This document shows, piece after piece, positions 5,906 to 28,385 of a stretch of DNA of 64,000 bases. Under the pieces are notes generated by a model that worked only from the letters and a program-made list of their open reading frames with translations, was not told where the DNA came from and did not search any database. Positions within the stretch are counted from its first letter, which is position 1. Each line of letters begins with the position of its first letter. Made by a program: the position numbers and the translations under genes. Location of the stretch: positions 124,001 through 188,000 of the forward strand of contig NZ_KB893388.1 in assembly GCF_000374085.1 (NCBI RefSeq). The letters are read 5' to 3'. This DNA comes from Spirosoma spitsbergense DSM 19989. GTDB lineage: Bacteria; Bacteroidota; Bacteroidia; Cytophagales; Spirosomataceae.

Positions 5906-5998
5906 ACGGTTCATCCCGCCTACATACCATTTCAGCGAACGGTTATACCGGTTGAAACCAACTGTGTTTTACCCGACCGGATTGAGCTGCCAATTTTG
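5906..5998 (+). promoter_or_regulatory. Direct-repeat promoter A (three half-sites plus -7 element)
   Basis: Three decamers lie at an exact 21-bp period: ACGGTTCATC at 5906, CCATTTCAGC at 5927 and CCGGTTGAAA at 5948. The octamer CAATTTTG starts at 5991, 43 bp after the start of the last decamer, the same distance as in eight other promoters of the window. The octamer fits the Bacteroidota -7 element (TAnnTTTG), while no TTTG-type -33 element is seen at the usual place, which suggests activator dependence. The site precedes a decayed lipoprotein reading frame and the IS630 element. Confidence 0.65.
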
Positions 5999-6069
5999 TC
6001 TTGTCAGATCGGCCTGAGTACTTCAGTGCGGGCGACTTACTTCCTTTTTTTAACAAAATAACCAACATA

Positions 6070-6236
6070 ATGAAACAGAAGCAGGCTTCCGTTTTGTAAG
6101 GCTCGCCCTGTTGCTACGTTCAGTCTTGTTCACCGCCCACAAGAAAAATTCAGACAATGGCAAATCTCCCCGCCAGACTACGCTGAAACGTACGATCAGC
6201 GTAACCTGTCAGGGGGCACCACGGTCACGATGAATC
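6070..6236 (+). pseudogene. Decayed small lipoprotein gene at the IS630 insertion point
   Basis: An ATG at 6070, preceded by an A-rich leader, opens a frame (MKQKQASVL) that stops after nine codons. In the -1 frame the sequence continues as a hydrophobic stretch and a segment like the start of a Bacteroidota lipoprotein (LALLLRSVLFTA then KKNSDNGKS), but the expected lipobox Cys is His. This frame ends at 6233, just before the IS630 target dinucleotide at 6237. I read this as a lipoprotein gene damaged by frameshift and possibly cut by the insertion. No clear continuation was found after 7440. The call is tentative. Confidence 0.3.
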
Positions 6237-6285
6237 TAGTACTCTTCCAAAATAGAGATTAGAGTAAAATGGTTAGCTTTGTGGT

Positions 6286-6750
6286 ATGGGCCAAATCGCA
6301 ACACCGTTCGTCCTGTCGGAAGCCGACCAGACAACACTTAGTCAATTAGTCAGCAAAGGAAAAGAGTCCGTTCGCAAACTCAATCGAGTCAGGGCCTTGC
6401 AGTTTTCGCATCAGGGTCAGCACCCTGAGCAGATCAGCAATTTGTTGGGTATCAGTGTAGCAACGGTTTATAACGTGCGAAAACGCTATCGAGAAGATGG
6501 ACTGCAACGAGCTATCAGTGAGAAAAAACGGCCGGGTCAGCCCCGTAAAGTGACACAAGAAGTGGAAGCTCAGATTACCCAGTTGGCTTGTAGTCAGGCA
6601 CCTGACGGCCGTACTCGGTGGACAGTAGCCCTGATTAACGAACGGTTGGTTAAACTCCAGATTCATATTGATGACGAGTCAGTTCGATTAGCGTTAAAAA
6701 AAGTAAGCTCAAGCCCTGGCTCAAAAAGCAGTGGTGCATCGGCCAGATAG
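6286..6750 (+). CDS. IS630 transposase, N-terminal frame (orfA)
   Basis: 154 aa if read to its own stop. Residues 30-100 form a helix-turn-helix DNA-binding region (LNRVRALQFSHQGQ, ISNLLGISVATVYNVRKRY), followed by GRPR-like linker residues (KRPGQPRKVT) and a winged-helix segment (RWTVALINERLVKLQIHID). The catalytic part is in the next frame. A heptamer of seven A residues at 6696-6702 lies in the right phase (A_AAA_AAA) for a -1 slip. After the slip the reading continues SKLKPWLKKQWCIGQID, the usual IS630 junction, to give a fused protein of about 379 aa ending at 7424. Without the slip orfA ends with an unrelated tail (SSSPGSKSSGASAR). Confidence 0.88.
   Translation: MGQIATPFVLSEADQTTLSQLVSKGKESVRKLNRVRALQFSHQGQHPEQISNLLGISVATVYNVRKRYREDGLQRAISEKKRPGQPRKVTQEVEAQITQLACSQAPDGRTRWTVALINERLVKLQIHIDDESVRLALKKVSSSPGSKSSGASAR
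6696..6702 (+). other. Probable programmed -1 frameshift site in the transposase gene
   Basis: Seven consecutive A residues in the phase A_AAA_AAA, followed by G. Slippage by -1 joins orfA to the catalytic frame at a position that restores the conserved IS630 sequence without a gap. Programmed frameshifting on A-rich heptamers is established for several IS families. Confidence 0.75.
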
Positions 6751-6770
6751 ACGGGGAATATCTGGCTAAA

Positions 6771-7424: not shown

Positions 7425-7516
7425 ATTGGAAGAGTACTAGGCATCCTGCCATGTTCGGTTCAGCGTGGGCGCAACAAAATAAGTATTCTGGTTCCCTTTC
7501 TCATCTCAAAAACATA

Positions 7517-7819: not shown

Positions 7820-7847
7820 CATTCGCATAGGTTAGGTTACGATCAGA

Positions 7848-7912: not shown

Positions 7913-8004
7913 TCGGTTCAACGGCGCTTTTTACGTTTCATGGCCGTTTTCTTACGCTTCATCCGATTGGGTATTGGCTTAACTTCTTCAGGCAGGCAAC
8001 TTTG
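7913..8004 (+). promoter_or_regulatory. Direct-repeat promoter B (cytochrome c gene)
   Basis: Three decamers, TCGGTTCAAC at 7913, ACGTTTCATG at 7933 and ACGCTTCATC at 7954, spaced 20 and 21 bp. The -7-like octamer CAACTTTG starts at 7997, 43 bp after the start of the last decamer. The start codon of the cytochrome gene at 8062 is 58 bp downstream of the octamer. The arrangement supports 8062, not 7879, as the true start, because a start at 7879 would put the whole promoter inside the coding region. Confidence 0.7.
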
Positions 8005-8061: not shown

Positions 8062-9042
8062 ATGAAAAAAGTAATGAAAATCCTCGGCTTGGTACTGGGT
8101 AGCGTGGTGCTGCTGCTGGCCGGGTTCTGCGCGTATGTAGCAGCTGTGGGCGTTCCCATCTATGACCCACCCGCCATCCCGAAAACTACGGTAGCCGTAA
8201 CACCCTCCCGCGTGGTACGGGGTGAAGTAATCGCCCAGATCCAGTGTATGTCGTGCCATACCGATAAGGATAAACACCTGACGGGTAAGTATCTGGCCGA
8301 GGTGCCTGCCCTGTTTGGGAAGCTGTATTCCAAAAATATCACTCAGGACAAAGAGAAGGGCATTGGTAACTGGACTGATGGCGAACTGATCTATTTTCTG
8401 CGAACAGGGATCCGGCGGGATGGTTCCTACGCAGCCATCATGCCCCAGTATCCCAACATGGCCGACGAGGATCTACAGTCGGTAGTGGCGTGGCTGCGTT
8501 CAGATCGCTTTCCGGTGCAGGCATCGAAACAGGAACCCCAATCGTCGGAACTCAGTTTTGTGTCGAAACTACTGACGCATACCCTGATGAAGCCCCTGCC
8601 GTATCCACAGTCATTTATTCCGCAACCCGATAGTAATGACCTGGTGGCGCTGGGTAAATACACGGCCGATGCCATTGGGGATTGTTACAGTTGTCATTCC
8701 GGCGATCTGGTTGATCAGGACAAAGTGCATACAACTAAAACCAAAGGGTACTACGGCGGTGGTATTGAAATGGTTGGCGAAGGGGGCCAAAAAGTAATAA
8801 CGGCTAACCTGACGTTCGATGAGGAGACCGGTATTGCCCGGAAATACACCAGAGAACAGTTTATCCGGGCGGTGAAGTCGGGCGTGCGGCCCGACGGCAG
8901 CATACTGAAGTATCCGATGGAGCCGAAAATAGTGTTGTCGGATCGGGAAGTAGGGGCTATTTATGACTACCTGAAAACGGTCCCGAAAATTAAAAATGAC
9001 ATCGCCAAAAAGAACGCTGAGTTACAACTGGTAGAAAAGTAA
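8062..9042 (+). CDS. Membrane-anchored diheme c-type cytochrome
   Basis: 326 aa from the ATG at 8062; the repeat promoter upstream and the N-terminal anchor (MKKVMKILGLVLGSVVLLLA) decide this start. Two CxxCH heme sites are visible, CMSCH at 62-66 and CYSCH at 208-212, each followed by a Met-containing segment that could supply the sixth ligand (AAIMPQYPNM; LKYPMEP). The protein should carry electrons on the periplasmic side of the inner membrane. No oxidase or dehydrogenase lies next to it, so its electron donor and acceptor are unknown; the neighbours are regulatory genes. It is a likely member of the 21-bp direct-repeat regulon. Confidence 0.85.
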   Translation: MKKVMKILGLVLGSVVLLLAGFCAYVAAVGVPIYDPPAIPKTTVAVTPSRVVRGEVIAQIQCMSCHTDKDKHLTGKYLAEVPALFGKLYSKNITQDKEKGIGNWTDGELIYFLRTGIRRDGSYAAIMPQYPNMADEDLQSVVAWLRSDRFPVQASKQEPQSSELSFVSKLLTHTLMKPLPYPQSFIPQPDSNDLVALGKYTADAIGDCYSCHSGDLVDQDKVHTTKTKGYYGGGIEMVGEGGQKVITANLTFDEETGIARKYTREQFIRAVKSGVRPDGSILKYPMEPKIVLSDREVGAIYDYLKTVPKIKNDIAKKNAELQLVEK

Positions 9043-9100: not shown

Positions 9101-9146
9101 TTACATTCGGTACCCTAAATCGTGATCCGGTGTAAATGATTAGTTG

Positions 9147-10184
9147 ATGCCGCAATTGAATGATAAATGGATGCGCATTGTGGGCGTTCCCATGCTGGCC
9201 CTGACAGGCCAGTGGATGATGTATGGCTATACGAATGTACCTTACCCGGACGATTGGCGCATTCCGGTTTTTTTTATACTGGGAGCCATCATCGTCTGGG
9301 AGTGCAACCGATGGGGGATCATTCTCTCCCGTCGGCGTTATCCCGGTCTGGCGCAAACTGCCCGTCGGGTACTGGCTCAGTTACTCTGGTTCATTGTGTT
9401 TGCCGCCCTCATTCGCATCAGTCAGACGTATCTGTACCATCGTATCGGATTATTTCCATCGGAAGACTATTTCCTGCTTAAGCCCTATTTTTTCAACACG
9501 CTCGTAGCCGTTTTTGGTACGGTTCAGGTGGCCGCAATTTTCGAGGGCATTTACCTGTATCATCGCTGGAAAGTTACCTACACCGAAACGCTGGAATTGA
9601 AAAAGTCGAGTTTGCAGAGTCAGCTTGAGTCGCTGAAAATGCAGATAAATCCCCATTTCCTGTTTAATAACCTGAACTCCCTGTCTTCGCTGATTACCAG
9701 CGATGCCGGACAGGCCGAACTGTTTCTGGATGAGCTGTCATCGGTATATCGGTACCTGCTCCAGCAGAACAATCGTGATCTCTGCCCGCTGGCTGACGAG
9801 TTGAATTTTATCAAGGCCTATTTTCACCTGCTCAAAACCCGGCATGGCAACGGTATTGTTCTGGAAACGAACATCGACTTGAAGTATATGCTGTATCTAA
9901 TGCCGCCCCTGACCCTGCAGCTTCTCTTCGAAAATGCGATTAAACTCAATGTTATCTCGGCAAACAGTCCCCTGATAATCAGGTTGTATACGCAGGAGGG
10001 GAATCTCTGCGTACAGAATAATCTGCAACCAAAAAAGACGCTGGTGCATTCGAACCGGATTGGGTTACAGAATATAATCGCGAAATATAAACTGATTGGT
10101 CAGGCACCGGTTGTGGTGCGGCATACGGGGGAGGGGTTTCTGGTGTGTATACCCCTGCTCGCGCCATCGGCAACGTTGCTGTAA
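9147..10184 (+). CDS. LytS-type membrane sensor histidine kinase
   Basis: 345 aa from the ATG at 9147; the TTG three bases earlier is less likely. Four transmembrane helices fill residues about 10-145 (for example ILGAIIVWECNRW and LLWFIVFAALIRIS). The His_kinase domain (PF06580) follows with the phosphoacceptor motif QINPHFLFNNLNSLSSLI near residue 170 and a G-box-like end (IGLQNIIAKYKLIG). The N box reads LFENAIKLN, where the paralogues have ENAVKHN, so a usually conserved His is Leu. It has no response regulator gene next to it. A minus-strand paralogue lies 19 bp beyond its stop. Confidence 0.88.
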   Translation: MPQLNDKWMRIVGVPMLALTGQWMMYGYTNVPYPDDWRIPVFFILGAIIVWECNRWGIILSRRRYPGLAQTARRVLAQLLWFIVFAALIRISQTYLYHRIGLFPSEDYFLLKPYFFNTLVAVFGTVQVAAIFEGIYLYHRWKVTYTETLELKKSSLQSQLESLKMQINPHFLFNNLNSLSSLITSDAGQAELFLDELSSVYRYLLQQNNRDLCPLADELNFIKAYFHLLKTRHGNGIVLETNIDLKYMLYLMPPLTLQLLFENAIKLNVISANSPLIIRLYTQEGNLCVQNNLQPKKTLVHSNRIGLQNIIAKYKLIGQAPVVVRHTGEGFLVCIPLLAPSATLL

Positions 10185-10203: not shown

Positions 10204-11226
10204 TTATACGAGGGGTAACGTCACGCGAAACGCCTGACCATCGTCTTCAATGGTTGGTGCGGGCTGGTCCAGCATCTGGTATTTGGTCAGGATGTTACTT
10301 AATCCCACCCCGTTCGACAGGGTGCGGCCGGGTTTTCGCTGCAGGTTGTTGCTGACAACCAGGCATTGGGCGGTGGCGGTGAGGGTAATAGTAAGGGGTT
10401 GCTCGGGCAGGATGATATTGTGTTTTACGGCATTCTCGATCAGCAGTTGTAGCGTCAAAGGTGGCAGTTGTCGGGTTTCGGCACCGGACTGAACCGTAAT
10501 GGCCAGCGTGAGTGAATCGCCATGGCGGGTTTTCAGCAGATGGTAGTATGACTCGATAAAGTCAAGTTCGCTGGCCAGGGGTACCAGCGGGGATTCATTA
10601 CTCCGGAGCAGATACCGGTATACCGTACTCAGTTCTTCGGCAAACGCGCTGGCCTGGAGGGGATTTTCATCAATCAACGAGATCAGCGAGTTGAGACTAT
10701 TGAACAGAAAATGCGGATTTACCTGTTGCCGGAGCGCATCCAGCTGCGTCTGTAGCTGGGCTTTACTGAGCGTTTCTACTTCCTGTCGTGACTGTTGCCA
10801 GTAGTTGAAACTGTCCATACCCTCGTACGTTACGACCACAATGGCCACAATAACGGTCGTATACAGAAGGGCAAACCCCAGTCGGGTAAAGCCAAACTCG
10901 AACCCCGGTAAATTGACGCCCCAATAGAGGGCATACAGAAGACTGGCATTGACAACGGACGATGCGGAGGTACTCGCAAATCGGTAGAGAGACCGCCTGA
11001 TGAATGGCATCTTGCCGTATTTTCGATTGATGTATAAGGCAATCTGGTTATTGAGCAGCCAGTTCAGAAACGATTCGATGAAGGCGAATAGCGATGCCAG
11101 GACAAGGGTTGTACTGTTGGACCAGTAGGCATTGCCGATCATAATCCAGTTGAGCAGGCCGATGTAAATGGGCAACACAATCAGCTGCAGAAGCCAGTCA
11201 TAGCGGGAGTAATGAATTGACTTCAT
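10204..11226 (-). CDS. LytS-type membrane sensor histidine kinase
   Basis: 340 aa from the ATG at 11226. This start is preferred over the ATG at 11283 because the paralogue at 22152-23240 begins at the equivalent position (MKSIHYSRYDWLLQ here, MNVPQYSRYDWLLQ there). Four hydrophobic helices (about 10-145) precede the His_kinase domain with NPHFLFNSLNSLISLID; the N box is LIENAVKHN and the C-terminal G box GVGLSNILTKYQML. It shares long identical runs with the 22152 kinase and is clearly its duplicate. It is divergent from the membrane LytTR gene at 11304 with 77 bp between the start codons, which suggests a functional pair. Confidence 0.88.
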   Translation of the reverse strand: MKSIHYSRYDWLLQLIVLPIYIGLLNWIMIGNAYWSNSTTLVLASLFAFIESFLNWLLNNQIALYINRKYGKMPFIRRSLYRFASTSASSVVNASLLYALYWGVNLPGFEFGFTRLGFALLYTTVIVAIVVVTYEGMDSFNYWQQSRQEVETLSKAQLQTQLDALRQQVNPHFLFNSLNSLISLIDENPLQASAFAEELSTVYRYLLRSNESPLVPLASELDFIESYYHLLKTRHGDSLTLAITVQSGAETRQLPPLTLQLLIENAVKHNIILPEQPLTITLTATAQCLVVSNNLQRKPGRTLSNGVGLSNILTKYQMLDQPAPTIEDDGQAFRVTLPLV

Positions 11227-11303
11227 AGGGCCACGAGGACGGGATTGGGAAATAGGGTACTCAAAACTACAGATAAACACCATACACCCGTCGCAGACCA
11301 GTT

Positions 11304-12164
11304 ATGAAAAAGATAGCCTATCCCGATAAACTTGCACGCGTAGTGGGCATCCCGGTTTGGTCCTTCCTGTTTCGACTCATCGGCGATCCATCGCCCCTGG
11401 GCGACCTGCTACAAAATTCCCTTTTTTACCTCGATGTCGTTGTTGTGATCGGGGTCAATATACTTCTTTGGGAGTCTAACCGATGGCTCATTCAGCAAAT
11501 GGATACCCGCTATTCCTGGGCTATGCAGCCTCTCCATCGTTTTTACGTGCAGGCTGGGGTAGCCTTTATCTGGACGGTGGGCGTTATCGCCCTGTTCAGT
11601 CTGGGGTATAACAACCTTATTCTGCAACGTCCTGCTCCCTTCAACCTGTCTATCACGATTTCCAATGATATACCTATTGGCCTGCTGTTTATCCTGCTTC
11701 TGCATATGGGCTACACCATGTACTGGATGGTCCGGTATCACCGGCATACAGTGGCCGGGTTGCAACAGAAAATTGCCCGGCTGAAATCTGCCAGCCCAAT
11801 CATATTTTCGGGGGGCAACCAACCAGGGGCAAGAACGCTGCTGGTCAACCACGGCAAAGCACAGGTACCGATTACTACCGATCAGGTAGCATTTATTTTT
11901 ATCGCCAATGAAGTTAGTATTGTCAAAACGGCCGATAGCAAATCATTTGTCCTTGACCTGACGATGGAACAGGTAGCCGAACGCCTGTCGTCGGCTGATT
12001 TCTTCCGGCTCAACCGCCAGTTTCTGGTAAATCGGCAAGCCATCCAGCGTGTAGAAAACGATGGTGTCGGGCGAATTGTACTTTATCTGAAACCATCCCA
12101 CGCTGAAGAAGTAGTCGTTAGTCGCCGTCGGGTAGCTGAGTTCCGGCAGTGGATGCAAACATAG
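11304..12164 (+). CDS. Membrane-anchored LytTR transcription regulator without receiver domain
   Basis: 286 aa. The N-terminal 150 residues contain four transmembrane helices and resemble the sensor part of the neighbouring LytS-type kinases: RVVGIP near the start and LLWESNRW correspond to RIVGVP and IVWECNRW in the kinase at 9147. A short coiled segment (HTVAGLQQKIARLKS) leads to a LytTR DNA-binding domain (about 178-286) with VAFIFIANEVSIVKTADSKS and FFRLNRQFLVNRQAIQRV. There is no receiver domain, so it would act as a one-component regulator or be controlled through membrane contacts with the kinases. It is transcribed divergently from the kinase at 10204-11226. Confidence 0.85.
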   Translation: MKKIAYPDKLARVVGIPVWSFLFRLIGDPSPLGDLLQNSLFYLDVVVVIGVNILLWESNRWLIQQMDTRYSWAMQPLHRFYVQAGVAFIWTVGVIALFSLGYNNLILQRPAPFNLSITISNDIPIGLLFILLLHMGYTMYWMVRYHRHTVAGLQQKIARLKSASPIIFSGGNQPGARTLLVNHGKAQVPITTDQVAFIFIANEVSIVKTADSKSFVLDLTMEQVAERLSSADFFRLNRQFLVNRQAIQRVENDGVGRIVLYLKPSHAEEVVVSRRRVAEFRQWMQT

Positions 12165-12187: not shown

Positions 12188-12280
12188 ACCATTCACCTTT
12201 TCATTCCGACCATTCACCTTTCTTTGTGCGCCAGTGGGGGTTTTAGAGCCGACACAGGCTGTTTTTTACCCCCACTTTTG
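12188..12280 (+). promoter_or_regulatory. Direct-repeat promoter I (beta-barrel gene)
   Basis: Two identical decamers ACCATTCACC at 12188 and 12209, a 21-bp period. A third copy expected at 12230 is degenerate (GCCAGTGGGG). The octamer CACTTTTG starts at 12273, 43 bp after that third position, so the phase matches the other repeat promoters even though the proximal half-site is weak. The start codon of the next gene is at 12308. Confidence 0.5.
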
Positions 12281-14073: not shown

Positions 14074-14132
14074 TGTGCTGAAGAGCTTATAAATGAACCT
14101 CTTCGGGAATTCTGTGAACCGCTACACAAAAG

Positions 14133-14204
14133 TCGCTTCATCAGCGGCTTTTGTCGTTTCAGCGAAGTTGCCACTCGTTTGGCGACGGGTACTGCGCACC
14201 TTTG
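14133..14204 (+). promoter_or_regulatory. Direct-repeat promoter C, overlapping a terminator-like hairpin
   Basis: Decamers TCGCTTCATC at 14133 and TCGTTTCAGC at 14154 (21-bp period); octamer CACCTTTG at 14197, 43 bp after the second decamer. The first decamer sits inside a hairpin (aaaagtcgc, loop ttcatca, gcggctttt; about 14129-14152) that could terminate the serine hydrolase transcript. The next gene starts at 14328. Confidence 0.7.
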
Positions 14205-17909: not shown

Positions 17910-17960
17910 AAGCCATCAATGAACTGTATAACGAATAATTATACGGTTCATTGATGGCTT
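17910..17960 (+). terminator. Terminator hairpin after the aldo/keto reductase gene
   Basis: A long stem: 17910-17930 (aagccatcaatgaac, one mismatch, gtata) pairs with 17940-17960, followed by the pyrimidine-rich run CTTCC. Its right arm contains the first half-site of repeat promoter D. Confidence 0.7.
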
Positions 17961-18014
17961 CTTCCGTTTCGTCGGCTTGCTGACTGGGGGTAGAGGATGG
18001 GCCATGCAACTTTG
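17943..18014 (+). promoter_or_regulatory. Direct-repeat promoter D (NHL protein operon)
   Basis: Decamers ACGGTTCATT at 17943 and CCGTTTCGTC at 17964 (21-bp period); octamer CAACTTTG at 18007, 43 bp after the second. The second decamer also resembles the AlgR core CCGTTCGTC, a known LytTR-domain target. The start codon of the NHL gene is at 18031, so the leader would be very short. Confidence 0.7.
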
Positions 18015-19164: not shown

Positions 19165-19198
19165 GTGACTATCCCTCTTTTTATAACCATCAAGTTCA

Positions 19199-20968
19199 AT
19201 GAAAACCCTCCTCTTTATTACACTCACCGCGCTGGTGCTGGGCCTTGCCGCCTGCAAAAAAGAAGCGGATTCTGTTACACCTGGTCAACCCGGCAACGCC
19301 CATCGGGGTACCGTCGAGACCATCGGGCGTTCTCTGGGAGCGGGCGTTAAAAAACAGATCGGTCCCGAAGGCGGTAGCCTGCAATCGGCCGATGGCTCCG
19401 TCAGGATCACCGTACCCGCCGGGGCCCTGACGGCCCTGACGGAGGTGGGCATCGAACCCATTACCAATACCTGCAACGGGGGAATCGGCAACGGCTGGCG
19501 ACTGACTCCCCACGGCAAAGCCTTTGCGAAGCCGGTTCAACTGACGCTGGATTATACGGCAGTGAAGGACAGCGTAACCTTCGCCAACGCGCTGGGACTG
19601 GCGTATCAGGATAGTAATGGAATCTGGCAGTTCATAGGGGCTACCGCCATCAATGCCAATGCGCACACGCTGACCATGCAGACCAACCACTTCAGTGACT
19701 GGACACTGTTGCAGTGGCTGACCTTATGGCCCATTCACGAAACGCTTCACGAAGGGGGGCAGGTGACGCTAGAAGCCCGCGAGTACATTGCTATTCCAGA
19801 TGGACTGACTGTGCCCATAGTCCCTGACTACGAAAACGGCTATCCGGTGGGTGATCCGGAATATATAGCGCAGAAATACGTCAAAAAATGGTCATTGGCG
19901 GGAGTAGGGGCGCTTAATCCACTCAGCACGGCTCCGGAAGCTGTTTATTTTGCTCCCCTAAAGGTAACGAAAACGCAGACCGTAGCCGTCAGTCTCGAAC
20001 TGAATCTGCCCGGCTCAGGGCAGGCCTTTCTGGTTTCCTCCATTGATATCCTGGGTAAAGAACCGTTTATCGACTACCTCCAGGTGGCGGAAAAAAAAGG
20101 CCCCAACGGCCGTGATAGTGAACTGATTATTTACGGTGCCAACTTCGGGGCGCAGGACAACGCCAAATCCAGCGTGACGATTAACGGCGAAGTAATCGGC
20201 CGTGAGGACATTGGCCTGTGGGGTGATAACATCATCGTTTGCCGCATACCGATGCTGGGCAATGCCGCATCGGGCGAAGTGCGGGTAAACACGGCGTCGG
20301 GTGTCGCCAGCCAACCCCATATGCTGAACGAATGGACGGTGGCCATGCGCTACAGACGTCCCTGCGCGCGGGTAGGCCAAAGTCTATTCGAGGCCAGTAC
20401 CATCTACCTGCGTATCCGGGGCGATGCGTCACCACCGCCCCAGAACCTGAATCTGCTGATGGGCGACAACAACCCCAATACGGCCGCGTTCAGGTCGTAT
20501 GTACACTGGCAAGCCGGTGGCGATGGGTTCTCCTCCTATAATAACGAGGAGTCTTGCGGGTCCGAGAAAGAAATCTGGTCGAAAAGTGAGGGCGATATTG
20601 AACTGACTCCGGATGGCAGGATTACCGATCCACAGTATTTTCGCGTTGCCCTGTATCATCTGCCGGGTCGTGGATTTGACGCGGTTATTGAATACGAAGC
20701 CAAAAATGTGGTTCCTTCCAACTTCGTTTTTACCCCCTGCAAAGGCAATCCCGTGTTGAATAACCGGCCCTACACCGTTCATTTACCTACCGAATTTCAT
20801 GAAGAACGTTTTCGGTTGTTGTTCAACGGAAATGGGCTGAAAGGTGGAAAATCAGCGGTTCATCCGGTGGGCATCGGTTCGTACAACCTACACTGCGATG
20901 TATCGGATGTTCCCAACTGGATGCAACAGGTCTCCGTGGAGTGGGATAACACAGCGGGTAAGTACTGA
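19199..20968 (+). CDS. Lipoprotein with ZU5-like and IPT/TIG domains
   Basis: 589 aa. The signal ends in a lipobox (LVLGLAAC, Cys19, followed by KK). Residues about 55-140 match the ZU5-like fold common in Bacteroidota surface proteins (IGPEGGSLQSADGSVRITVP, then AGAL). A middle region (about 285-375) looks like an IPT/TIG Ig-like domain (ELIIYGANFGAQDNAKSSVT, then GEVRVNTASG). The C-terminal 200 residues are not recognised. The product is likely a surface-exposed binding protein. It sits between the NHL and monooxygenase genes with small gaps, which suggests cotranscription from promoter D. Confidence 0.75.
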   Translation: MKTLLFITLTALVLGLAACKKEADSVTPGQPGNAHRGTVETIGRSLGAGVKKQIGPEGGSLQSADGSVRITVPAGALTALTEVGIEPITNTCNGGIGNGWRLTPHGKAFAKPVQLTLDYTAVKDSVTFANALGLAYQDSNGIWQFIGATAINANAHTLTMQTNHFSDWTLLQWLTLWPIHETLHEGGQVTLEAREYIAIPDGLTVPIVPDYENGYPVGDPEYIAQKYVKKWSLAGVGALNPLSTAPEAVYFAPLKVTKTQTVAVSLELNLPGSGQAFLVSSIDILGKEPFIDYLQVAEKKGPNGRDSELIIYGANFGAQDNAKSSVTINGEVIGREDIGLWGDNIIVCRIPMLGNAASGEVRVNTASGVASQPHMLNEWTVAMRYRRPCARVGQSLFEASTIYLRIRGDASPPPQNLNLLMGDNNPNTAAFRSYVHWQAGGDGFSSYNNEESCGSEKEIWSKSEGDIELTPDGRITDPQYFRVALYHLPGRGFDAVIEYEAKNVVPSNFVFTPCKGNPVLNNRPYTVHLPTEFHEERFRLLFNGNGLKGGKSAVHPVGIGSYNLHCDVSDVPNWMQQVSVEWDNTAGKY

Positions 20969-21006
20969 TTATTTAGGCATTCGACCTTGTAAAAACTGCG
21001 TAAGCC

Positions 21007-22155
21007 ATGAACACACAACCTGCATTCGCCATTCTGGGTGGGGGCATCGCTGGCCTAACCACCGCTATTGCACTCCAGCGAATCGGCATCCGGGCCACGC
21101 TTTTTGAGGCCGCACCCGACGTGAAGCCGGTAGGAGCAGGGCTTGCTCTGGCGGCCAACGCCATTCAGGCATTCCAGCGTCTGGGTATGGCCGACCGGGT
21201 AATTGCCAGCGGGCGCCAACTCGACGCGTTTTCTATTCTGGATGAGTGGGGCAAAGCCATTACGCGCAGCGATAGTCGCGCTATTAGCCAACGCTACGGC
21301 GTGAATAATTTTGCCATTCATCGGGCCGAACTGCACCGGGTTCTGTTAGAAAGCATTGATTCGGATATTGTTCAAACGGGTAAGCGGGCTGTTCGTATCG
21401 TACAGGAACCGGATAGCGTTACCATTTTTTTCGATGATGAGACGAGTTACCAGACGCCCTACCTGCTCGTTGCCGATGGTATCCATTCGCTGATCCGGCA
21501 ACAACTCGTGCCTAAGTCGGTCCCGCGCTATGCGGGCTACACCTGCTGGCGGGCAGTGGTCCGCCAGCCCGGCTCTATCCTGCACGAAGCCACCGAAACC
21601 TGGGGCAGCCGGGGGCGGGTAGGCATCGTGCCGCTAGCCAATGAGCAGGTGTACTGGTTTGCCTGCGTAAACGCCCCCGCCCAACACAAACCGATGCGCC
21701 AGTTGACCCCGTACGATCTGGCCGACCGGTTTAAACACTACCACGCCCCCATTCCTGAACTGCTGGCGCAAACACCCGGCGAAAACCTGCTCTGGAATGA
21801 CATCATTGATCTGAAACCGCTGTCCCGTTATGCCTTTGGGCGAGTGCTGCTGTTGGGCGATGCGGCCCATGCCACCACGCCCAACATGGGGCAGGGAGCC
21901 TGCCAGGCCATAGAAGATGCTGTCGTCCTGGCCGATGAGCTGGCCAGAGGTCAATTGGTGGAAGAGGCTTTTGCCGGGTTCGAGCGTCGGCGGCTGGCAC
22001 GAACTCATTACATCACTACGACGTCCCGGCGAATCGGGCAGGTGGCGCAAATCACCAACCCGCTATTTACGATGCTTCGTAATGGGCTGTTTCGCCGGTT
22101 GCCCGACCGTATCAATGAACGGCAGCTGGAGCAACTGTATCAGGTTAATTTTTAG
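21007..22155 (+). CDS. FAD-dependent monooxygenase (PF01494 family)
   Basis: 382 aa. The N-terminal FAD-binding motif is FAILGGGIAGLTTAIALQRI, the middle DG motif is LLVADGIHSLIRQQLV, and the GD motif is LLLGDAAHATTPNMGQGACQ followed by AIEDAVVLADEL. These are the three hallmark motifs of flavin monooxygenases such as salicylate and 6-hydroxynicotinate hydroxylases and zeaxanthin epoxidase. The substrate cannot be predicted. The gene follows the ZU5/TIG gene by 38 bp, an odd pairing of a cytoplasmic redox enzyme with envelope proteins. Its stop overlaps the end of the convergent kinase gene by 4 bp. Confidence 0.9.
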   Translation: MNTQPAFAILGGGIAGLTTAIALQRIGIRATLFEAAPDVKPVGAGLALAANAIQAFQRLGMADRVIASGRQLDAFSILDEWGKAITRSDSRAISQRYGVNNFAIHRAELHRVLLESIDSDIVQTGKRAVRIVQEPDSVTIFFDDETSYQTPYLLVADGIHSLIRQQLVPKSVPRYAGYTCWRAVVRQPGSILHEATETWGSRGRVGIVPLANEQVYWFACVNAPAQHKPMRQLTPYDLADRFKHYHAPIPELLAQTPGENLLWNDIIDLKPLSRYAFGRVLLLGDAAHATTPNMGQGACQAIEDAVVLADELARGQLVEEAFAGFERRRLARTHYITTTSRRIGQVAQITNPLFTMLRNGLFRRLPDRINERQLEQLYQVNF

Positions 22156-23240
22156 CGGCTCTGCCAGGGTGAGCGGACGGTACGACCCAAAGCGGGGTTG
22201 ACCGGCGAATCGACGACTAAAGCCAGCGTAACGCGGAATGTTTCCCCATCGTCTTCAATCACTGGCGTAGGTTGGCCCAGCATGCGATACTGATGCAGGA
22301 TGTTGCTCAGGCCTATCCCGTTGGATAATACGTTGCCGGGCTTGCGCTGTAGGTTGTTACTCACCGTTAGCCGCTGCTGCTCATCGGTCGTGAGCGAAAT
22401 GGTCAGGGGTTGTTCGGGCAGAATTGCGTTATGCTTCACGGCATTCTCAATCAGGAGTTGCAGGGTTAAGGGAGGGAGTTTTCGATCTTCCAGACCGGGC
22501 TGGATGCGGGTGATGAGCGTGAGGGAGTCGCCATGACGCGTCTTCAGCAGGTGGTAGTAGGACTGAACGAAGTCGAGCTCAGCGGCCAGGCTGGTTAGTG
22601 GTAGTTCGTTGGCCCGGAGCAGATACCGGTACACGGAACTGAGTTCTTCGGCAAACATACCCGCCTGGTGGGGATTTTCATCGATCAACGAGATCAGCGA
22701 GTTGAGGCTATTGAAGAGAAAATGGGGATTGACCTGCTGTCTGAGCGCGTCGAGTTGTGCCCGCAGCTGCGCCTTGCTAAGCGTTTCTACCGTCTGCTCC
22801 GATTCCTGCCAATGGTCGAACGAGTGAATACTTTCGTAGGCAAGGAGCACCAGCGCTACTACCGTCAGGGTTACCGATAATCCCAAAGCAAGCCGGATCA
22901 GGGGCGGCTGGAAATCATTAAAAGCAATAAACCTGTACAGAAAAAACAGCAGGATGGTGTTCAGGGAAGAGTCGAAAATACACAGAACAGTCTGCCGGGT
23001 AAGCCGTTGCCGGTACTGCTCTTTTCGGGGATACCGGCGATGCATGGAGTTGGCAGCGACATTATTTATGAGCCAGCCCACAAAGGAGAAACAGCTGGCA
23101 ATGAGCGTAGCAACACCGAATATGAACCAGTTTTGCCAATAAACCGGCCCAATCAACGCCCAGTTGAGTACGCCAATGTAGATAGGTATCACAATGGCCT
23201 GTAGCAACCAGTCGTAACGGGAATACTGCGGTACGTTCAT
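22152..23240 (-). CDS. LytS-type membrane sensor histidine kinase
   Basis: 362 aa, starting MNVPQYSRYDWLLQ. Four transmembrane helices (about 10-150), then the His_kinase domain with QQVNPHFLFNSLNSLISLID, N box LIENAVKHNAIL and G box GIGLSNILHQYRML. It is the closest paralogue of the kinase at 10204-11226: the H-box region, the helix before it and the C-terminal domain are nearly identical. It converges on the monooxygenase gene and diverges from the membrane protein gene at 23438, whose repeat promoter lies in the shared spacer. No response regulator gene is adjacent. Confidence 0.9.
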   Translation of the reverse strand: MNVPQYSRYDWLLQAIVIPIYIGVLNWALIGPVYWQNWFIFGVATLIASCFSFVGWLINNVAANSMHRRYPRKEQYRQRLTRQTVLCIFDSSLNTILLFFLYRFIAFNDFQPPLIRLALGLSVTLTVVALVLLAYESIHSFDHWQESEQTVETLSKAQLRAQLDALRQQVNPHFLFNSLNSLISLIDENPHQAGMFAEELSSVYRYLLRANELPLTSLAAELDFVQSYYHLLKTRHGDSLTLITRIQPGLEDRKLPPLTLQLLIENAVKHNAILPEQPLTISLTTDEQQRLTVSNNLQRKPGNVLSNGIGLSNILHQYRMLGQPTPVIEDDGETFRVTLALVVDSPVNPALGRTVRSPWQSR

Positions 23241-23340: not shown

Positions 23341-23412
23341 CTGCTTCATCGGTAGTTTTTTCCGTTTCATTGACTTCATAATGGGCTATGTACCCAGACG
23401 AAGTCAACTTTG
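23341..23412 (+). promoter_or_regulatory. Direct-repeat promoter F (membrane protein gene)
   Basis: Decamers CTGCTTCATC at 23341 and CCGTTTCATT at 23362 (21-bp period); octamer CAACTTTG at 23405, 43 bp after the second. The first decamer lies in a weak hairpin (actgc/gtagt around ttcatcg) followed by six T residues. The gene start at 23438 is 26 bp downstream. Confidence 0.75.
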
Positions 23413-23437: not shown

Positions 23438-24172
23438 ATGAACACATCAACTGCTTACACCCGTCAGGTGGGTCTGCTGACGCTCCTGTCCGGTCCCCTG
23501 GCCCTGCTATCCCTGGTTCTATCCGGCGTAGCCCTGGCCGATCATCCGGAAGCCTTTTCCGATCCGGTGCAGATACTGGCTATTCCAATGGTTAATGCCG
23601 ACCTGTTGCGCTGGTCGATGCTCTTCGATATAGCCGGTTATTATCTGCTGCTGCTACCGGCAATCTTCTGGCTGCGGCAATGGTTGCAGGCGCAAACGCC
23701 CTGGGCGCGACTTATTACCTACTGCGCTACCAGTTACGTGCTGATTGGGGCGATTGGAGCAGCCATCCTGGCGGTCCTGATCCCTATGTTACTGGCCGAC
23801 TACTCGTCGGCCGCTGCCAGTGAGCAGGCTACCATCCGGCTTATTTACAAAACAATAGTCGGACTGGTGTACGGTGGATTATGGAATACGCTGGAGGTGA
23901 CACTGGCCGGTGTCTGGTGGTTGATGACGGGCTATTATCTGACCCGGTTTGGCCGGGCTTTCCGCTGGATAACGATCCTGCTGGGCCTATCATCCCTGCT
24001 CGATGGTTTGGGCGAGGTTTTGGAGCTGGAAGCAGTAGCTACGGCTGGATTAAATGGTTACCTGCTGCTGGCTCCCATCTGGGCCATCTGGTTGGGTATA
24101 AAACTCCGGTGGTTTGCACGGCATAGTACGCCCGTGGTTGCGGAAGACCAATTGATGCCTACGGCTTACTAG
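23438..24172 (+). CDS. Multi-pass membrane protein (DUF4386-like)
   Basis: 244 aa with about six hydrophobic helices (for example VGLLTLLSGPLALLSLVLSG at the start, YVLIGAIGAAILAVLIPMLL in the middle and LLLAPIWAIWLGIKLRWF at the end). The spacing of helices and the segment YKTIVGLVYGGLWNTLEV recall DUF4386-type proteins, but this is a weak assignment. It has its own repeat promoter (F) directly upstream and a terminator-like hairpin downstream that overlaps promoter E. Expected location: inner membrane. Function unknown. Confidence 0.7.
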   Translation: MNTSTAYTRQVGLLTLLSGPLALLSLVLSGVALADHPEAFSDPVQILAIPMVNADLLRWSMLFDIAGYYLLLLPAIFWLRQWLQAQTPWARLITYCATSYVLIGAIGAAILAVLIPMLLADYSSAAASEQATIRLIYKTIVGLVYGGLWNTLEVTLAGVWWLMTGYYLTRFGRAFRWITILLGLSSLLDGLGEVLELEAVATAGLNGYLLLAPIWAIWLGIKLRWFARHSTPVVAEDQLMPTAY

Positions 24173-24202
24173 CCAGCCGGCAAACAGCCAGTCTGTTTAC
24201 TA

Positions 24203-24225
24203 AAGCCGCTTCATCAGCGGCTTTT
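24203..24225 (+). terminator. Short terminator hairpin with an operator half-site in its loop
   Basis: Stem aaagccgc/gcggcttt around the loop ttcatca, followed by T residues, 30 bp after the stop at 24172. The loop and left stem form the first decamer of promoter E. Confidence 0.7.
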
Positions 24226-24277
24226 TCCGTTTCATCGGGTTCGCTCCTGTTACCCTGTAAAGGGGCCAATATCTTTG
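24206..24277 (+). promoter_or_regulatory. Direct-repeat promoter E (methyltransferase gene)
   Basis: Decamers CCGCTTCATC at 24206 and CCGTTTCATC at 24227 (21-bp period, one base apart from identical); octamer TATCTTTG at 24270, 43 bp after the second and a perfect match to TAnnTTTG. This is the best-conserved member of the nine sites. The gene start is at 24362. Confidence 0.8.
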
Positions 24278-24361
24278 AATCAGTAAATAATAAACCGCCA
24301 CTCATCCGGCGACTTCCTCTTTTTTTAACCAAACCGGCTTACAGCCAATACAACAAATCAG

Positions 24362-25426
24362 ATGGAAACACTTACCCTTGAATCCAAAACGGCCGTTGCG
24401 CCAAAAACGGTTATCACTCCCGACCACATCATACAGATCGGTATGGGCTTCTGGGCCTCCAAAACCCTGCTGGCTGCCGTTAAACTAGACCTGTTCACTG
24501 AAATTGGTGATGGTTCATTTACCGGCGAAGAACTCCGCGAACAGTTGGGCCTGCATACACGTAGCAGTACCGATTTCTTCGACACACTGGTATCGCTGGG
24601 GTTACTTTGCCGTCATGATAACGGCGCTACTGTCCGCTACGGCAATACACTGGAGACCAGTATCTTTCTGGTGAAATCATCGCCAGCCTATGTGGGTGGC
24701 CTGCTCGAAATGGCTAATGATCGGCTTTACCCGTACTGGGGGAGTCTGGAAGAAGGGCTTCGTACCGGCCAGCCTCAAAACGAAATAAAGCATACCGGCA
24801 AACCTGGGTTTGATGCTATTTACGCCCAGCCTGCCGTGCTGGAGCAGTTTCTGAACGGAATGGCCGGGGCGCAGGCAGGCAACTTCATGGCACTGGCCAA
24901 CGTGTTTGATTTCGGGCAGTACAACTCGTTGTGCGACATTGGTGGAGCCAATGCTACGCTGTCAATCTGCGTAGCCCGGCAATACCCGAACCTCGATTGC
25001 CTGTCGGTAGATTTACCGCCGGTAGCACCCATTGCCGCCCATAACGTAGCGCAGGCGGGTCTGGCGCATCAGATTCAGGTGGGAACGTTCAATTTCCTTG
25101 CCGACTCATTTCCAACGGCCGATGTCATTACAATGGGCAATATCCTGCACGACTGGAACCTGGATATTAAGAAGATGCTGATCCGAAAAGCGTACGAAGC
25201 TTTACCCGAAAATGGTGCCCTGGTGGTGATTGAAAACATCATCGACGACGAACGGCGACAAAATACCTTCGGACTGCTGATGTCGCTGAATATGCTCATC
25301 GAAACAGACGGGGGCTTCGACTACACCCACGCCGACTTCAACGGGTGGGCCCTGGAAGCGGGTTTCCGGTCAACGGAAAAACGGTCGCTGGCCGGTTCGG
25401 CCAGTATTGTGATTGCCTACAAATAA
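24362..25426 (+). CDS. SAM-dependent O-methyltransferase (PF00891 family)
   Basis: 354 aa. The N-terminal dimerisation domain (about 25-100) has the winged-helix pattern of this family (MGFWASKTLLAAVKLDLFTE, LREQLGLHTRSSTDFFDTLV). The catalytic Rossmann part has the SAM motif LCDIGGANATLSICVA, an acidic residue after strand 2 (CLSVDLPPV), and the GNILHDWN motif, whose His-Asp pair matches the general-base region of O-methyltransferases such as hydroxyneurosporene methyltransferase and plant OMTs. The substrate is unknown. A VOC protein gene follows after 117 bp; a small-molecule modification pathway is possible but unproven. It is driven by promoter E. Confidence 0.88.
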   Translation: METLTLESKTAVAPKTVITPDHIIQIGMGFWASKTLLAAVKLDLFTEIGDGSFTGEELREQLGLHTRSSTDFFDTLVSLGLLCRHDNGATVRYGNTLETSIFLVKSSPAYVGGLLEMANDRLYPYWGSLEEGLRTGQPQNEIKHTGKPGFDAIYAQPAVLEQFLNGMAGAQAGNFMALANVFDFGQYNSLCDIGGANATLSICVARQYPNLDCLSVDLPPVAPIAAHNVAQAGLAHQIQVGTFNFLADSFPTADVITMGNILHDWNLDIKKMLIRKAYEALPENGALVVIENIIDDERRQNTFGLLMSLNMLIETDGGFDYTHADFNGWALEAGFRSTEKRSLAGSASIVIAYK

Positions 25427-25543: not shown

Positions 25544-26275
25544 ATGAAAATTCTCGAACTCGATCTTTACACCCCTGATCTGGAGGCCACCCGGCTTTTC
25601 TACGTCCAGCGTCTGGGCCTGTCCGTATTGGCTCGGTCAGCCGACAGTCTGACTGTACGAATTGGCTGGACACAACTAACCTTCCGGTCCGTCTGCCAGC
25701 CAGTAAATCCGTATCATATCGCCATCAACGTACCCCGTGGGTCGCTGGAGGTGATCATGCACTACTTCGATCTGGATTATCTGGATACGCAGCAACCCGG
25801 CAAAACCATTGCCGACTTCCCCGACTGGCGGGCCAGAGCCTGTTATTTTTATGATGGTACCGGCAACCTGCTGGAGTTTATTGCCCGCACAGACTTGCCA
25901 TTGGATAACCCCAACCTGACCATCAATGACCTGTTTCAGGGCGTTAGTGAGATTGGCCTGGCTACGGAAGATGTTGCCTGCACATCGGAACAGATCCAGG
26001 AGCGGTTTGCCGTTCCGCAATACGATAAATCGACGCCCATGCCTGATTTTAACGCTTTGGGCGATGATAATGGATTGTTTATTCTGTCGCGGGTGGGCCG
26101 TAAATGGTTATTTTCTGCCACCCCCGCTGGCTTAAACTACTGCCGCGTCCGGTTCCTGAACGGGCCGGACAGAAGTTCGCAGGAGCTTTATTTCTATGAA
26201 GTTAACCGGCTACCCATCGGCTGGAGTGTTCGGTCGGTGTCTGCTTCTGAATCTCGTTCATCCCTGGCCGTGTAA
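25544..26275 (+). CDS. VOC-superfamily (glyoxalase/dioxygenase-like) protein
   Basis: 243 aa. The first half is a typical VOC module: LELDLYTPDLEATRLFYVQR, then LGLSV at the start, YHIAINVPRGSLEVIM for the first metal-region His, and RACYFYDGTGNLLEFIART for the Glu ligand region. The second half (from about 130) repeats a weaker VOC-like pattern (GVSEIGLATEDVACTSEQIQ), so the protein may be a two-module fold in one chain. Activity could be dioxygenase, lyase or binding protein. It follows the methyltransferase gene on the same strand. Its stop codon overlaps the first half-site of promoter G. Confidence 0.8.
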   Translation: MKILELDLYTPDLEATRLFYVQRLGLSVLARSADSLTVRIGWTQLTFRSVCQPVNPYHIAINVPRGSLEVIMHYFDLDYLDTQQPGKTIADFPDWRARACYFYDGTGNLLEFIARTDLPLDNPNLTINDLFQGVSEIGLATEDVACTSEQIQERFAVPQYDKSTPMPDFNALGDDNGLFILSRVGRKWLFSATPAGLNYCRVRFLNGPDRSSQELYFYEVNRLPIGWSVRSVSASESRSSLAV

Positions 26276-26367
26276 CGGTTTAATCCCTCTTTTTTCCGGT
26301 TGAAACAGCCCCTTTGACTGTTGGTTGGTATGGTCAGCGGCCTTTGGTACCCCAACGGTCAACTTTG
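26275..26367 (+). promoter_or_regulatory. Direct-repeat promoter G (lipocalin-like gene)
   Basis: Decamers ACGGTTTAAT at 26275, CCGGTTGAAA at 26296 and a weaker ACTGTTGGTT at 26317, all at a 21-bp period. The octamer CAACTTTG starts at 26360, 43 bp after the third. The second decamer is identical to the third one of promoter A. Confidence 0.6.
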
Positions 26368-26413
26368 TCAGGCCAACCGGCAGTAATCCTTTCTCTAAAC
26401 AACACATATAACA

Positions 26414-26914
26414 ATGAACCATTTTCCATTACGCTCGCTCAATATCCTACTAATCGGCCTCCTGCTGCTTACAGCTGCCTGCCGGAACGATACCGATATT
26501 CGTACTACTGGCACCAGTGCCAACCCTGCCTTTGTGGGGCCCCGCTGGCAGATGACTGCTTTTGTGCTGAATCCTGCTATTGATTTCAATGGCGACGGTA
26601 CGCTGGAGTCCGATCTGTTTTCGTTCATGCCCGCCTGCGACCGGGATAACTCACTCGCGTTTAATGCAAACGGAACGATGGTTACCTCACGTGGGCAACT
26701 TCAGTGTTCCGATTCTGCCAGCAACAGCGACAGGATCAACACCTGGCAATACGATTCTGCCAGCCGCACCCTGACCATTACTGATTCCGGTAAGTCCACA
26801 GAGCCTGCGACCTGGACGGTGATCGAAGCTTCTGCCAGTGTCCTGATCATTGAAAAGACAGACCTGGAAAAGGGTAAACCAGTCAAAAATACGGTTCACT
26901 GGAAGGCCATCTGA
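26414..26914 (+). CDS. Lipocalin-like lipoprotein
   Basis: 166 aa. The signal peptide ends in the lipobox LLLLTAAC (Cys23). The mature part has the pattern of Bacteroidota lipocalin-like domains (PF13648): RWQMTAFVLNPAIDFNGDGT near the start, DNSLAFNANGTMVTSRGQ, then NTWQYDSASRTLTITD and VIEASASVLIIEKTD as late strands. Four Cys residues are present in total, including the acylated one. The protein probably sits on the outer membrane and binds a small or hydrophobic ligand. It is preceded by repeat promoter G. Confidence 0.75.
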   Translation: MNHFPLRSLNILLIGLLLLTAACRNDTDIRTTGTSANPAFVGPRWQMTAFVLNPAIDFNGDGTLESDLFSFMPACDRDNSLAFNANGTMVTSRGQLQCSDSASNSDRINTWQYDSASRTLTITDSGKSTEPATWTVIEASASVLIIEKTDLEKGKPVKNTVHWKAI

Positions 26915-27028
26915 TCAGAAAAATCACGTTTCAATCCATCTGTTCGTATTCGTTTCAGCTCCCCAGTGTATGAACAGTTCACGTTAAAAACGGCTCTCTC
27001 AATGGGGTCTGGGGCTTCCTCTTTTTTT

Positions 27029-28291
27029 ATGAAACCAACAACATACCTCTCGCTGAACCTGAGTGTTCAGCCCATCCTGATTCAAACCGGCCTCCGGTTA
27101 GTTTTCCTGATGATGGCCAGCCTGTTTCTGCTAACGGGCTGTAAAAAAGGAACCGGTGATGACGCCATCCAACCCGTTCCAACGGTGACAGATCCCATTC
27201 TGCTGAGTACGAACATCACGACCAAAACAACCCTGGTGGATCAGGTTGCCAACCCCGACCTGCCGGATTATATCGTGACCAAATCCATTGATGTGAACAG
27301 CGAACTGACTATCAACCCCGGCGTGGTGATCGCTTTTGAGCGCGACGTACGGATGAACGTTAATGATGGGGGCGGTATGCTCATCGCTAAAGGTACTGCC
27401 GGGCAACGGATTCGGTTTATAGGAGTGCAGAGAACGAAAGGCTACTGGGCGGGCATTACCCTCTATTCGGGCAGCAACGTCAACGCGCTGGAATATGTTG
27501 ATGTGCTTCATGCCGGGAGCCGTACGGCGTACAGCCTCACCAAAGCCGCTCTATTTTTATCGGGTAGCAGTAAAGCACAGATCGGGCTGAAAAACTGCCT
27601 GTTCTCGGAAAATGATGGCTACGGAATCTATGTGTACACCGGTGGCCTGTTGCGTGAGTTTGAGAAAAATGCCTTTACCAATAATACCGAAGCGGGCATC
27701 CTGCTCGACGCCGACAATGTAGCCAGATTAGATCCAGCCTCAACCTTCACGGGTGGCAACGGCCGTAATGTGGTAGAGGTGGCTCAGTCGGCTGTAACCG
27801 GCGGTAGCGAAATCGTATGGGCTGGCTTTGCCGACAAAACCCCATACCGGCTCAATGGCGTACTGGATATCAATGCGGGCTTTAGCCTGAAACCCGGCGT
27901 AACGGTAGAACTAAACCGGGATGCCATAATTCAGGTCAACACCACTGGCTATTTAAGTGCCAGAGGGACGGCAACGGAAAAGATAGTATTCACCAGTGCC
28001 AGTCATACGGCGGCCTACTGGCGCGGTATTATCTACTATTCGGCCGATAGTAAAAACGTGCTGGAAAATGCGGAAGTCAGCAATGCCGGCAGCATCCAGA
28101 TTGTCTCGAACAAGAAAGCCAATGTGGCCGTCTGGGGTACCCGGGCTTCCATCAGCATAAAAAATACCCATGTCAGTGGCAGTGGGGGGTACGGGGTTTT
28201 TGTAGGCTACGGAGCTTCGGCCAACACCGACATCAGTACCGCCAACACGTTTGAAGCCAACACGCAGACGAACGTACTGATTGACAAATAA
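27029..28291 (+). CDS. Right-handed beta-helix lipoprotein
   Basis: 420 aa from the ATG at 27029, taken because it gives a usable signal with the lipobox SLFLLTGC followed by KK; an ATG at 26966 is in frame but adds 21 unrelated residues. The mature part is a chain of parallel beta-helix coils with repeated short turns: VVIAFERDVRMNVNDGGGML, KCLFSENDGYGIYVY-like turns (actual NCLFSENDGYGIYVYTGG), and a second set (VTVELNRDAIIQVNTTGYLS, SISIKNTHVSGSGGYGVFVG). Such folds occur in pectate lyases and adhesins; no catalytic residues are evident. It may be cotranscribed with the lipocalin-like gene 114 bp upstream. Confidence 0.75.
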   Translation: MKPTTYLSLNLSVQPILIQTGLRLVFLMMASLFLLTGCKKGTGDDAIQPVPTVTDPILLSTNITTKTTLVDQVANPDLPDYIVTKSIDVNSELTINPGVVIAFERDVRMNVNDGGGMLIAKGTAGQRIRFIGVQRTKGYWAGITLYSGSNVNALEYVDVLHAGSRTAYSLTKAALFLSGSSKAQIGLKNCLFSENDGYGIYVYTGGLLREFEKNAFTNNTEAGILLDADNVARLDPASTFTGGNGRNVVEVAQSAVTGGSEIVWAGFADKTPYRLNGVLDINAGFSLKPGVTVELNRDAIIQVNTTGYLSARGTATEKIVFTSASHTAAYWRGIIYYSADSKNVLENAEVSNAGSIQIVSNKKANVAVWGTRASISIKNTHVSGSGGYGVFVGYGASANTDISTANTFEANTQTNVLIDK

Positions 28292-28313
28292 GGTCTGTCA
28301 TTGCCGGAATAAA

Positions 28314-28385
28314 CCGCTTCATCGGCGGTTTATTCCGTTTTATCGTACCGGGGATCGGGGAAGAGGCATAATTCATTAATTTTTG
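28314..28385 (+). promoter_or_regulatory. Direct-repeat promoter H (sensor kinase operon)
   Basis: Decamers CCGCTTCATC at 28314 and CCGTTTTATC at 28335 (21-bp period); octamer AATTTTTG at 28378, 43 bp after the second. The first decamer lies in a hairpin (aaaccgc/gcggttt around ttcatcg) that could terminate the beta-helix transcript. The kinase starts at 28412, so a kinase gene itself appears to belong to the regulon. Confidence 0.7.

Follow-up and report, generated by a model that had tools for sequence, protein, structure and literature searches.

We describe here a promoter code, together with its putative regulator, in a 64,000-nt stretch of the Spirosoma spitsbergense DSM 19989 genome (contig NZ_KB893388.1, positions 124,001 to 188,000; hereafter the window, whose positions are counted from its first letter). 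Six promoters of one gene island carry two copies of a decamer with a consensus of about MCGNTTCAKY at a 21-bp period, the second copy starting 43 bp before an octamer ending in TTTG. These sites are very probably LytTR-type operators, and the predicted binder is the clade of the REC-LytTR response regulator encoded at 30540..31331 on the minus strand (matches to Pfam REC and LytTR).

An initial annotation of this DNA had listed nine promoters with the 21-bp repeat and the 43-bp distance, and all nine octamers ending in TTTG are present where it had placed them. For a fair test of the code, a site matrix was trained on 26 sites of other genomes, with the window's sites excluded, and the control set comprised 49 stretches (980 kb in total). 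Six sites (octamers at 7997, 14197, 18007, 23405, 24270 and 28378) score 33.6-44.8 against a control maximum of 19.1; with the full matrix of 32 sites, which includes these six and is therefore partly trained on them, they reach 37.1-46.4 against 17.4. A matrix made from the six best sites alone gives self-scores of 35.0-40.0, and the best score in 240 kb of other DNA of the same genome is 14.7. Six Markov resamplings, a comparison with shuffled sequence of the kind that the annotation had named as a possible refutation, gave maxima of 12.3-14.0 for the window. When the window was scanned, with mismatches allowed, for NAnnTTTG octamers preceded by the two decamers at 64 and 43 bp, seven places emerged on the plus strand, all of them on the initial list, and none on the minus strand.

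All six strong sites lie on the plus strand. The one at 7933..8004 (decamers at 7933 and 7954, octamer at 7997; score 39.8, no mismatches to the family pattern) precedes a cytochrome c gene, that at 14133..14204 (33.6) the gene at 14328, and that at 17943..18014 (44.8) the genes of an NHL-repeat protein, a TIG-like protein and an FAD monooxygenase. The site at 23341..23412 (38.0), divergent from a kinase gene, precedes the gene of a DUF4386-like membrane protein, the one at 24206..24277 (42.8) an O-methyltransferase gene and the one at 28314..28385 (34.2) a PF06580 kinase gene. A seventh site at 5906..5998 (plus strand; decamers at 5906, 5927 and 5948 at a 21-bp period, octamer at 5991) is marginal, with 22.0 by the 26-site matrix and 20.6 by the full matrix, its last copy being poor (1.0) and the preceding one better (6.9). 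Between this promoter and the gene at 7451 lies a transposase pair at 6286-7424 (HTH and DDE_3 matches), which we take to be IS630-like, so the original target of the 5991 site may have been displaced. The two remaining promoters were rejected as regulon members on score: the doubtful site at 26275..26367 (plus strand, before a lipocalin-like gene) combines a good octamer at 26360 with poor decamers (9.9), and the 12273 promoter scores -0.2 by the 26-site matrix, so that the distance of exactly 43 bp asserted for all nine is true of these two by placement only. The nine promoters are in this way reduced to six, or to seven if 5991 is counted.

The anatomy of the sites was drawn from the 32 sites with at most one mismatch, in which the 10-nt decamer and the 11-nt spacer are fixed by the selection. 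Outside the selected columns, conservation is seen in a T run before the second decamer, in TT at columns 34-35 and in TTG at columns 41-43. This TTG, overlooked in the initial annotation, starts 10 bp past the decamer, with its T, T and G present in 22, 26 and 20 of the 32 sites (columns unselected), and 20 nt separate it from the octamer at columns 64-71. The layout is that of the Bacteroidota primary-sigma promoter, with a -7 element TANNTTTG and a -33 element about 19-20 bp upstream; the octamers fit this -7 element as had been proposed, their first base being mostly C (19/32), with the octamer itself part of the site selection. The sum of 10 (decamer), 10, 3 (TTG) and 20 nt accounts for the decamer-to-octamer distance of 43 bp. 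When the selected sites were masked, half-sites of the pooled decamer matrix scanned at a threshold of 8 and the distances counted, 39 pairs had the period of 21, and no other period between 12 and 32 occurred more than 3 times; the distance of 43 to an octamer was counted 27 times, and none of the others between 30 and 59 exceeded 4; controls showed no such peak (period 21, 4 times, with a maximum of 5 at 30; distance 43, 4 times, with a maximum of 7 at 33). A genus scan with a gap of 14 instead of 13 between the half-sites returned no island site and was not counted as evidence. LytTR operators are also known from BtsR, AgrA and VirR. The geometry found here agrees with published LytTR sites, described in the available text of PMC4847170 as repeats of 9-11 nt with a spacer of 11-13 nt and in that of PMC6193735 as often lying 10 bp upstream of the -35 element, with Bacteroides examples before TATCTTTG: the repeats here measure 10 nt, are separated by 11 nt and end about 10 bp ahead of -33.

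In pattern scans of this and related genomes, in line with the check that had been proposed, the code recurs across the family. In the window's own genome, the loose pattern with at most one mismatch gives 19 matches against 5 for the reversed control; six are the strong sites of the window, and the other 13 loci score at most 14.1. The stricter pattern with at most two mismatches gives 8 matches, namely the six, one at 7.3 and one at 25.3, the last (G000:C25:25690-25761) being a moderate site outside the island. Confinement of the code to the island was dropped on account of this site; among the sites that the patterns can find in this genome, the strong ones all lie in the island and one moderate site lies elsewhere. 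Across the genus, a scan with at most two mismatches finds matches in 30 of 36 genomes (107 against 10 for the reversed pattern). One two-mismatch match recurs nearly unchanged (G009:C1:132168 and like places in G008, G011, G017, G021 and G032) and probably reflects coding sequence under conservation, which would make it a false positive. The family scan with at most one mismatch gives 114 matches (six in the window) against 6 reversed, spread over 53 of the 222 genomes and 11 of the 36 genera. Among 147 genomes of the phylum outside the family, 5 have one match each and 3 have a reversed-pattern match, which is chance level and hence no evidence for the code beyond the family.

Which protein recognises the sites is suggested by the genes around them. 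In the genus, stretches around places with at most one mismatch (outside the window's own genome and G021:C5) contain a LytTR gene in 9 of 18 cases, one of the nine weak and two of the stretches short contigs, compared with 0 of 20 shifted control stretches (p 0.0003); in the rest of the family, the figures for no-mismatch places are 9/21 against 1/17 (p 0.012). When protein clusters of 39 site stretches were compared with those of the 49 control stretches, PF06580 kinases ranked first in site-stretch excess (29/39 against 1/49 stretches, 82 members) and LytTR proteins second (19/39 against 1/49, 22 members), a linkage which is clear without being universal. Nineteen of 21 LytTR proteins of the site stretches, the 30540 protein included, match the receiver domain of the latter, two of them weakly. 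The tree of LytTR domains (44 domains, last 112 residues) was built without the 4861 protein, whose LytTR match is slightly under its Pfam cut-off, and without the divergent site-linked L120 and G148C4_52885. On this tree, the label "near a site" is clustered (8 changes against a shuffled mean of about 15, with none of 500 shuffles as low), and one clade (99/93) of 20 proteins, among them that of 30540, holds 17 near-site members. Four near-site members lie outside it, and L120 and G148C4_52885 also fell outside in a first tree, which makes at least six site-linked LytTRs outside the clade. The three remaining clade members had at first no listed site within 10 kb, and the resulting prediction was tested: the 20 kb around them hold 2, 1 and 4 sites scoring at least 18, the best at 29.6, 28.4 and 30.1. 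The same region was examined for 15 LytTR loci outside the clade that had been labelled as far from a site: 6 contain a single site of at least 18, which in five cases adjoins the LytTR gene, so members of a sister clade may regulate themselves through a similar code; in the sister-clade members L225, L227, L230, L232, L233 and L240, one site of 18.0-31.4 was noted near the LytTR gene itself. The window's own genome has 31 LytTR matches. Of the three LytTR proteins named as candidates in the initial annotation (at 4861, 11304 and 30540), that at 30540 belongs to the site-linked clade, and that at 11304 probably goes with another repeat.

This last protein, a membrane LytTR without REC (11304..12164, plus strand; Pfam LytTR), deserves separate consideration, as its N-terminal part is related to the sensor part of the kinases (kinase sensor profile: hmmsearch E 2.6e-6, hhalign probability 94.7%; ortholog in G004, 2.3e-7). 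The homolog in G021 reaches only about 0.002 against the same profile, for which the best unrelated protein stands at 0.0029. Downstream of the gene, at 12188..12280 (plus strand), two copies of ACCATTCACC lie at 12188 and 12209, a period of 21 bp that puts them 85 and 64 bp ahead of the octamer 12273; they precede the 12299 gene and beta-lactamase-fold genes, and G004 and G005 show the same arrangement. Repeats of the ACCATTCA type stand upstream of the 12299 homologs next to the membrane LytTR (L065+L066 near 19928 and L067+L068 near 20290, joined positions), and such repeats are possibly its own operator. Directly before the membrane LytTR of G004 we also noted an arylamine N-acetyltransferase gene (PF00797; L065 18116-18892), with like sequence in G005; the G004 gene stands behind a weak repeat pair (16.8). 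It is conceivable that the 11304 protein, as a one-component regulator with a kinase-like sensor acting from the membrane, binds the six sites itself: its gene lies inside the island, and in the 40-kb stretch of G021:C5 the only LytTR found is a membrane LytTR, situated between two strong sites. We consider this unlikely, as the 40 kb around each of its relatives in G004, G005 and G010 contain no site scoring 16 or more, the genes after 11304 carry the different, conserved repeat, and the receiver domain shared by nearly all site-stretch LytTRs argues against 11304 as the binder.

The assignment of the sites to the 30540 clade also has to be weighed against several adverse observations. A LytTR gene is absent from 20 of the 39 site stretches, and neither a LytTR nor a kinase gene is present in 9 of them (30/39 have one or the other); in none of 21 cases does the LytTR gene lie directly behind a site scoring at least 22, so autoregulation as in the LytTR regulatory system (LRS) is not seen; the LytTR nearest to the moderate C25:25690 site is some 23 kb off (C25:48428); and the relatives compared are non-independent samples. 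The stretches without a LytTR gene would fit operators of another regulator which merely travel with LytS/LytTR genes, a reading that we regard as quite improbable: the top 30 protein clusters show no comparable regulator family (a cNMP-binding family, with one member identified, occurs in 6/39 stretches), the sites have the geometry of LytTR operators, and sites were present at all three clade members for which they had been predicted. The LytTR regulon put forward in the initial annotation is well supported by geometry and by linked LytTR genes, and direct binding is predicted.

A further property overlooked earlier is that the upstream decamer often lies within the loop of a terminator-like hairpin. 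Folding of the 32 sites shows a hairpin over the upstream decamer followed by T residues, with z < -1.5 at 21 of them and a mean of -2.4; in the window, this concerns the sites 14133..14204 (hairpin 14127-14153, z -3.5), 24206..24277 (24202-24224, z -4.1) and 28314..28385 (28308-28334, z -2.9). For sites scoring at least 22 with an upstream neighbour within 200 bp, such a hairpin is found at 47 of 71 co-oriented sites against 4 of 18 divergent ones (Fisher p 0.0011), and a T run alone at 65/71 and 11/18, respectively. The hairpin is best read as a putative terminator of the upstream gene which shares DNA with the operator. That the whole pattern is a by-product of terminators or a dispersed intergenic DNA repeat, as the frequent hairpins at co-oriented sites might suggest, is hardly credible, since the decamers remain at the divergent sites (mean decamer score 22.4 against 24.7) where hairpins are rare, and, apart from the -33 TTG and a small number of T positions, the DNA from the second decamer to the octamer shows little conservation.

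The window contains five kinases of the LytS type (PF06580). Four carry H and N boxes (9144..10184, plus strand; 10204..11283 and 22152..23240, both minus strand; 28412..29530, plus strand, behind the strong site), and the fifth (29527..30229, plus strand), which falls into the same protein cluster, is disrupted: its reading frame shifts soon after the start, and an in-frame stop ends it near 30229. Elsewhere, eleven kinases occur in 60 kb of G148, four each in L115, L116, L118, L197, L199 and L202, and just one in 9 site stretches. Among 76 kinases of at least 320 aa, 73 have the H box, 76 the loose N-box pattern and 58 the strict one, in agreement with PF06580. In each of the 80 kinase pairs compared within islands, the sensor part shows less similarity (median 25%) than the catalytic part does (51%). 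Each window kinase was also compared with a partner, the kinase of another island most similar in its catalytic part: for that at 9144 the sensor is 78% and the catalytic part 75% alike, and for the other three the values are 34-50% and 66-79%. A sensor can evidently be conserved, and the case for sensor swapping rests on few orthologs.

As to the genes controlled, the 39 stretches contain 114 sites scoring at least 22, of which 105 have a downstream open reading frame (ORF), and these 105 genes fall into only 25 families, some of which recur directly behind sites (7/7, 12/13, 11/14, 3/3). In the window, the predicted targets on the plus strand are the cytochrome c gene (8080..9042, PF00034; 11/14 family members in site stretches directly behind a site), the gene at 14328..15278, which has no Pfam match (7/7), the row of NHL-repeat, TIG-like and FAD monooxygenase genes (18031..22155; NHL family 6/7), and the DUF4386-like and O-methyltransferase genes (23438..25426; one promoter each, the DUF4386 match slightly under cut-off, the methyltransferase family 3/3). 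Among the 25 of 59 Pfam families listed for the 105 genes, cupin is counted 15 times, cytochrome c 11, beta-helix 9, PF06580 8, PKD up to 8, NHL 6, UDP-glycosyltransferase 6 and O-methyltransferase 3. A lipobox-like signal is found in 19/105 against 51/692 control ORFs and 31/499 other ORFs of the site stretches (crude ORF calls). With 89 bits, one glycosyltransferase falls short of the 260-bit cut-off of the macrolide-glycosyltransferase model that it matches, and the FAD monooxygenase of the window passes only the cut-off of an unnamed monooxygenase model. Island genes that mostly lack a site immediately before them include RND pumps and adaptors as well as a DAPG-hydrolase-like family. A protein search with the 14328 family gave 17 loci in Runella, Fibrella, Fibrisoma, Spirosoma, Arsenicibacter, Larkinella and Telluribacter, six of which overlap the earlier stretches. 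Some of the new loci (L250, L251, L252 and L257) have sites only elsewhere in 17 kb, and L241, L243, L248 and L249 have no site of at least 16 in 17 kb; the homologs in L243, L248 and L252 have degenerate repeats upstream that are visible by eye, and these were not counted. The link of this gene to the sites is strong inside islands and not universal.

The code, its spacing, the co-location, the recurrence and the sensor divergence are computed results, and from them we infer binding, activation, phosphotransfer and an inducing signal. The LytS-type kinases of an island would, as their co-location suggests, phosphorylate the regulator (30540-31331 or its orthologs), two protomers of which would then occupy the DNA upstream of -33 and recruit RNA polymerase; two decamers 21 bp apart, corresponding to two helix turns, would place them on one face of the DNA. 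The position of the decamers upstream of -33 also points to activation rather than repression. As the kinases combine a common catalytic part with different membrane sensors, a single regulator would receive several signals, and where the upstream gene has the same direction, its terminator hairpin would usually contain the distal half-site. The mix of targets (cytochrome c, cupins, lipoproteins, glycosyl-, methyl- and FAD-dependent modifying enzymes, in some islands also pumps) suggests a response to small toxic or aromatic compounds, and an inducible response of this kind is a tentative proposal. Equally speculative, as a picture of the whole, are plug-in islands of the Spirosomataceae, in which diverged sensors, as many as about ten on a common kinase core, may feed one LytTR regulator and changeable detoxifying or surface genes may stand behind a terminator-operator-promoter cassette, with the sensor moved onto a LytTR domain (11304) as a one-component version. 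Against the explanation as a whole it should be noted that detoxification rests on family names and the families are broad; that the RND pump (0/7) and the FAD monooxygenase (1/6) are rarely directly behind a site and may lie further down the operons; that only 3 of 11 new 14328-family loci (L246, L247 and L255) have a site of at least 16 directly before the gene; and that membrane parts may diverge faster in any case.

Among the papers listed by searches of the open-licence PMC literature we found no description of this regulon, nor a LytTR regulon of the Bacteroidota whose operator is defined, apart from the LRS-like repeats predicted for Bacteroides in PMC6193735. A coevolution study of F. 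johnsoniae, in the part available, reports a LytTR mutation in two lines with its contribution stated as unknown (PMC10197871), and it was not used here. Since the general LytTR geometry is already in print in the sections at hand of PMC4847170 and PMC6193735, the type of operator is known and the regulon is new, as are its extension over the family, the many-kinase islands per regulator, the membrane LytTR with a kinase-like sensor and the operators nested in an upstream terminator. The code yields a matrix that predicts targets in many genomes and points to one regulator clade, and orphan kinases become a testable many-to-one network. The YpdB system, going by the available text, has the same repeat geometry, a REC-LytTR regulator and a LytS-type kinase, and its motif GGCATTTCAT has TTTCAT in common with the decamer here (PMC4847170); in contrast to LytS/LytTR systems, there are here several kinases per island, a run of separately promoted targets over about 20 kb and Bacteroidota promoter elements. 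LRS and the Bacteroides LRS-like operons, as presented in the accessible part of PMC6193735, share the repeat geometry just upstream of the promoter (for example TCCGGTATTCA-11-ACCGGAAATCA, 11 bp, TGTA-19-TATCTTTG) and a membrane LytTR as at 11304. They differ in that the likely regulator here, like most site-linked LytTRs, has a receiver domain and is not of the REC-less LRS kind, that the LytTR gene does not stand behind a site, and that the regulon is larger than one operon. The 11304 protein, finally, is of the same kind as the transmembrane transcription regulators treated in the portion available of PMC10269533, and is set apart from them by a sensor part which is related to the sensors of the neighbouring kinases.

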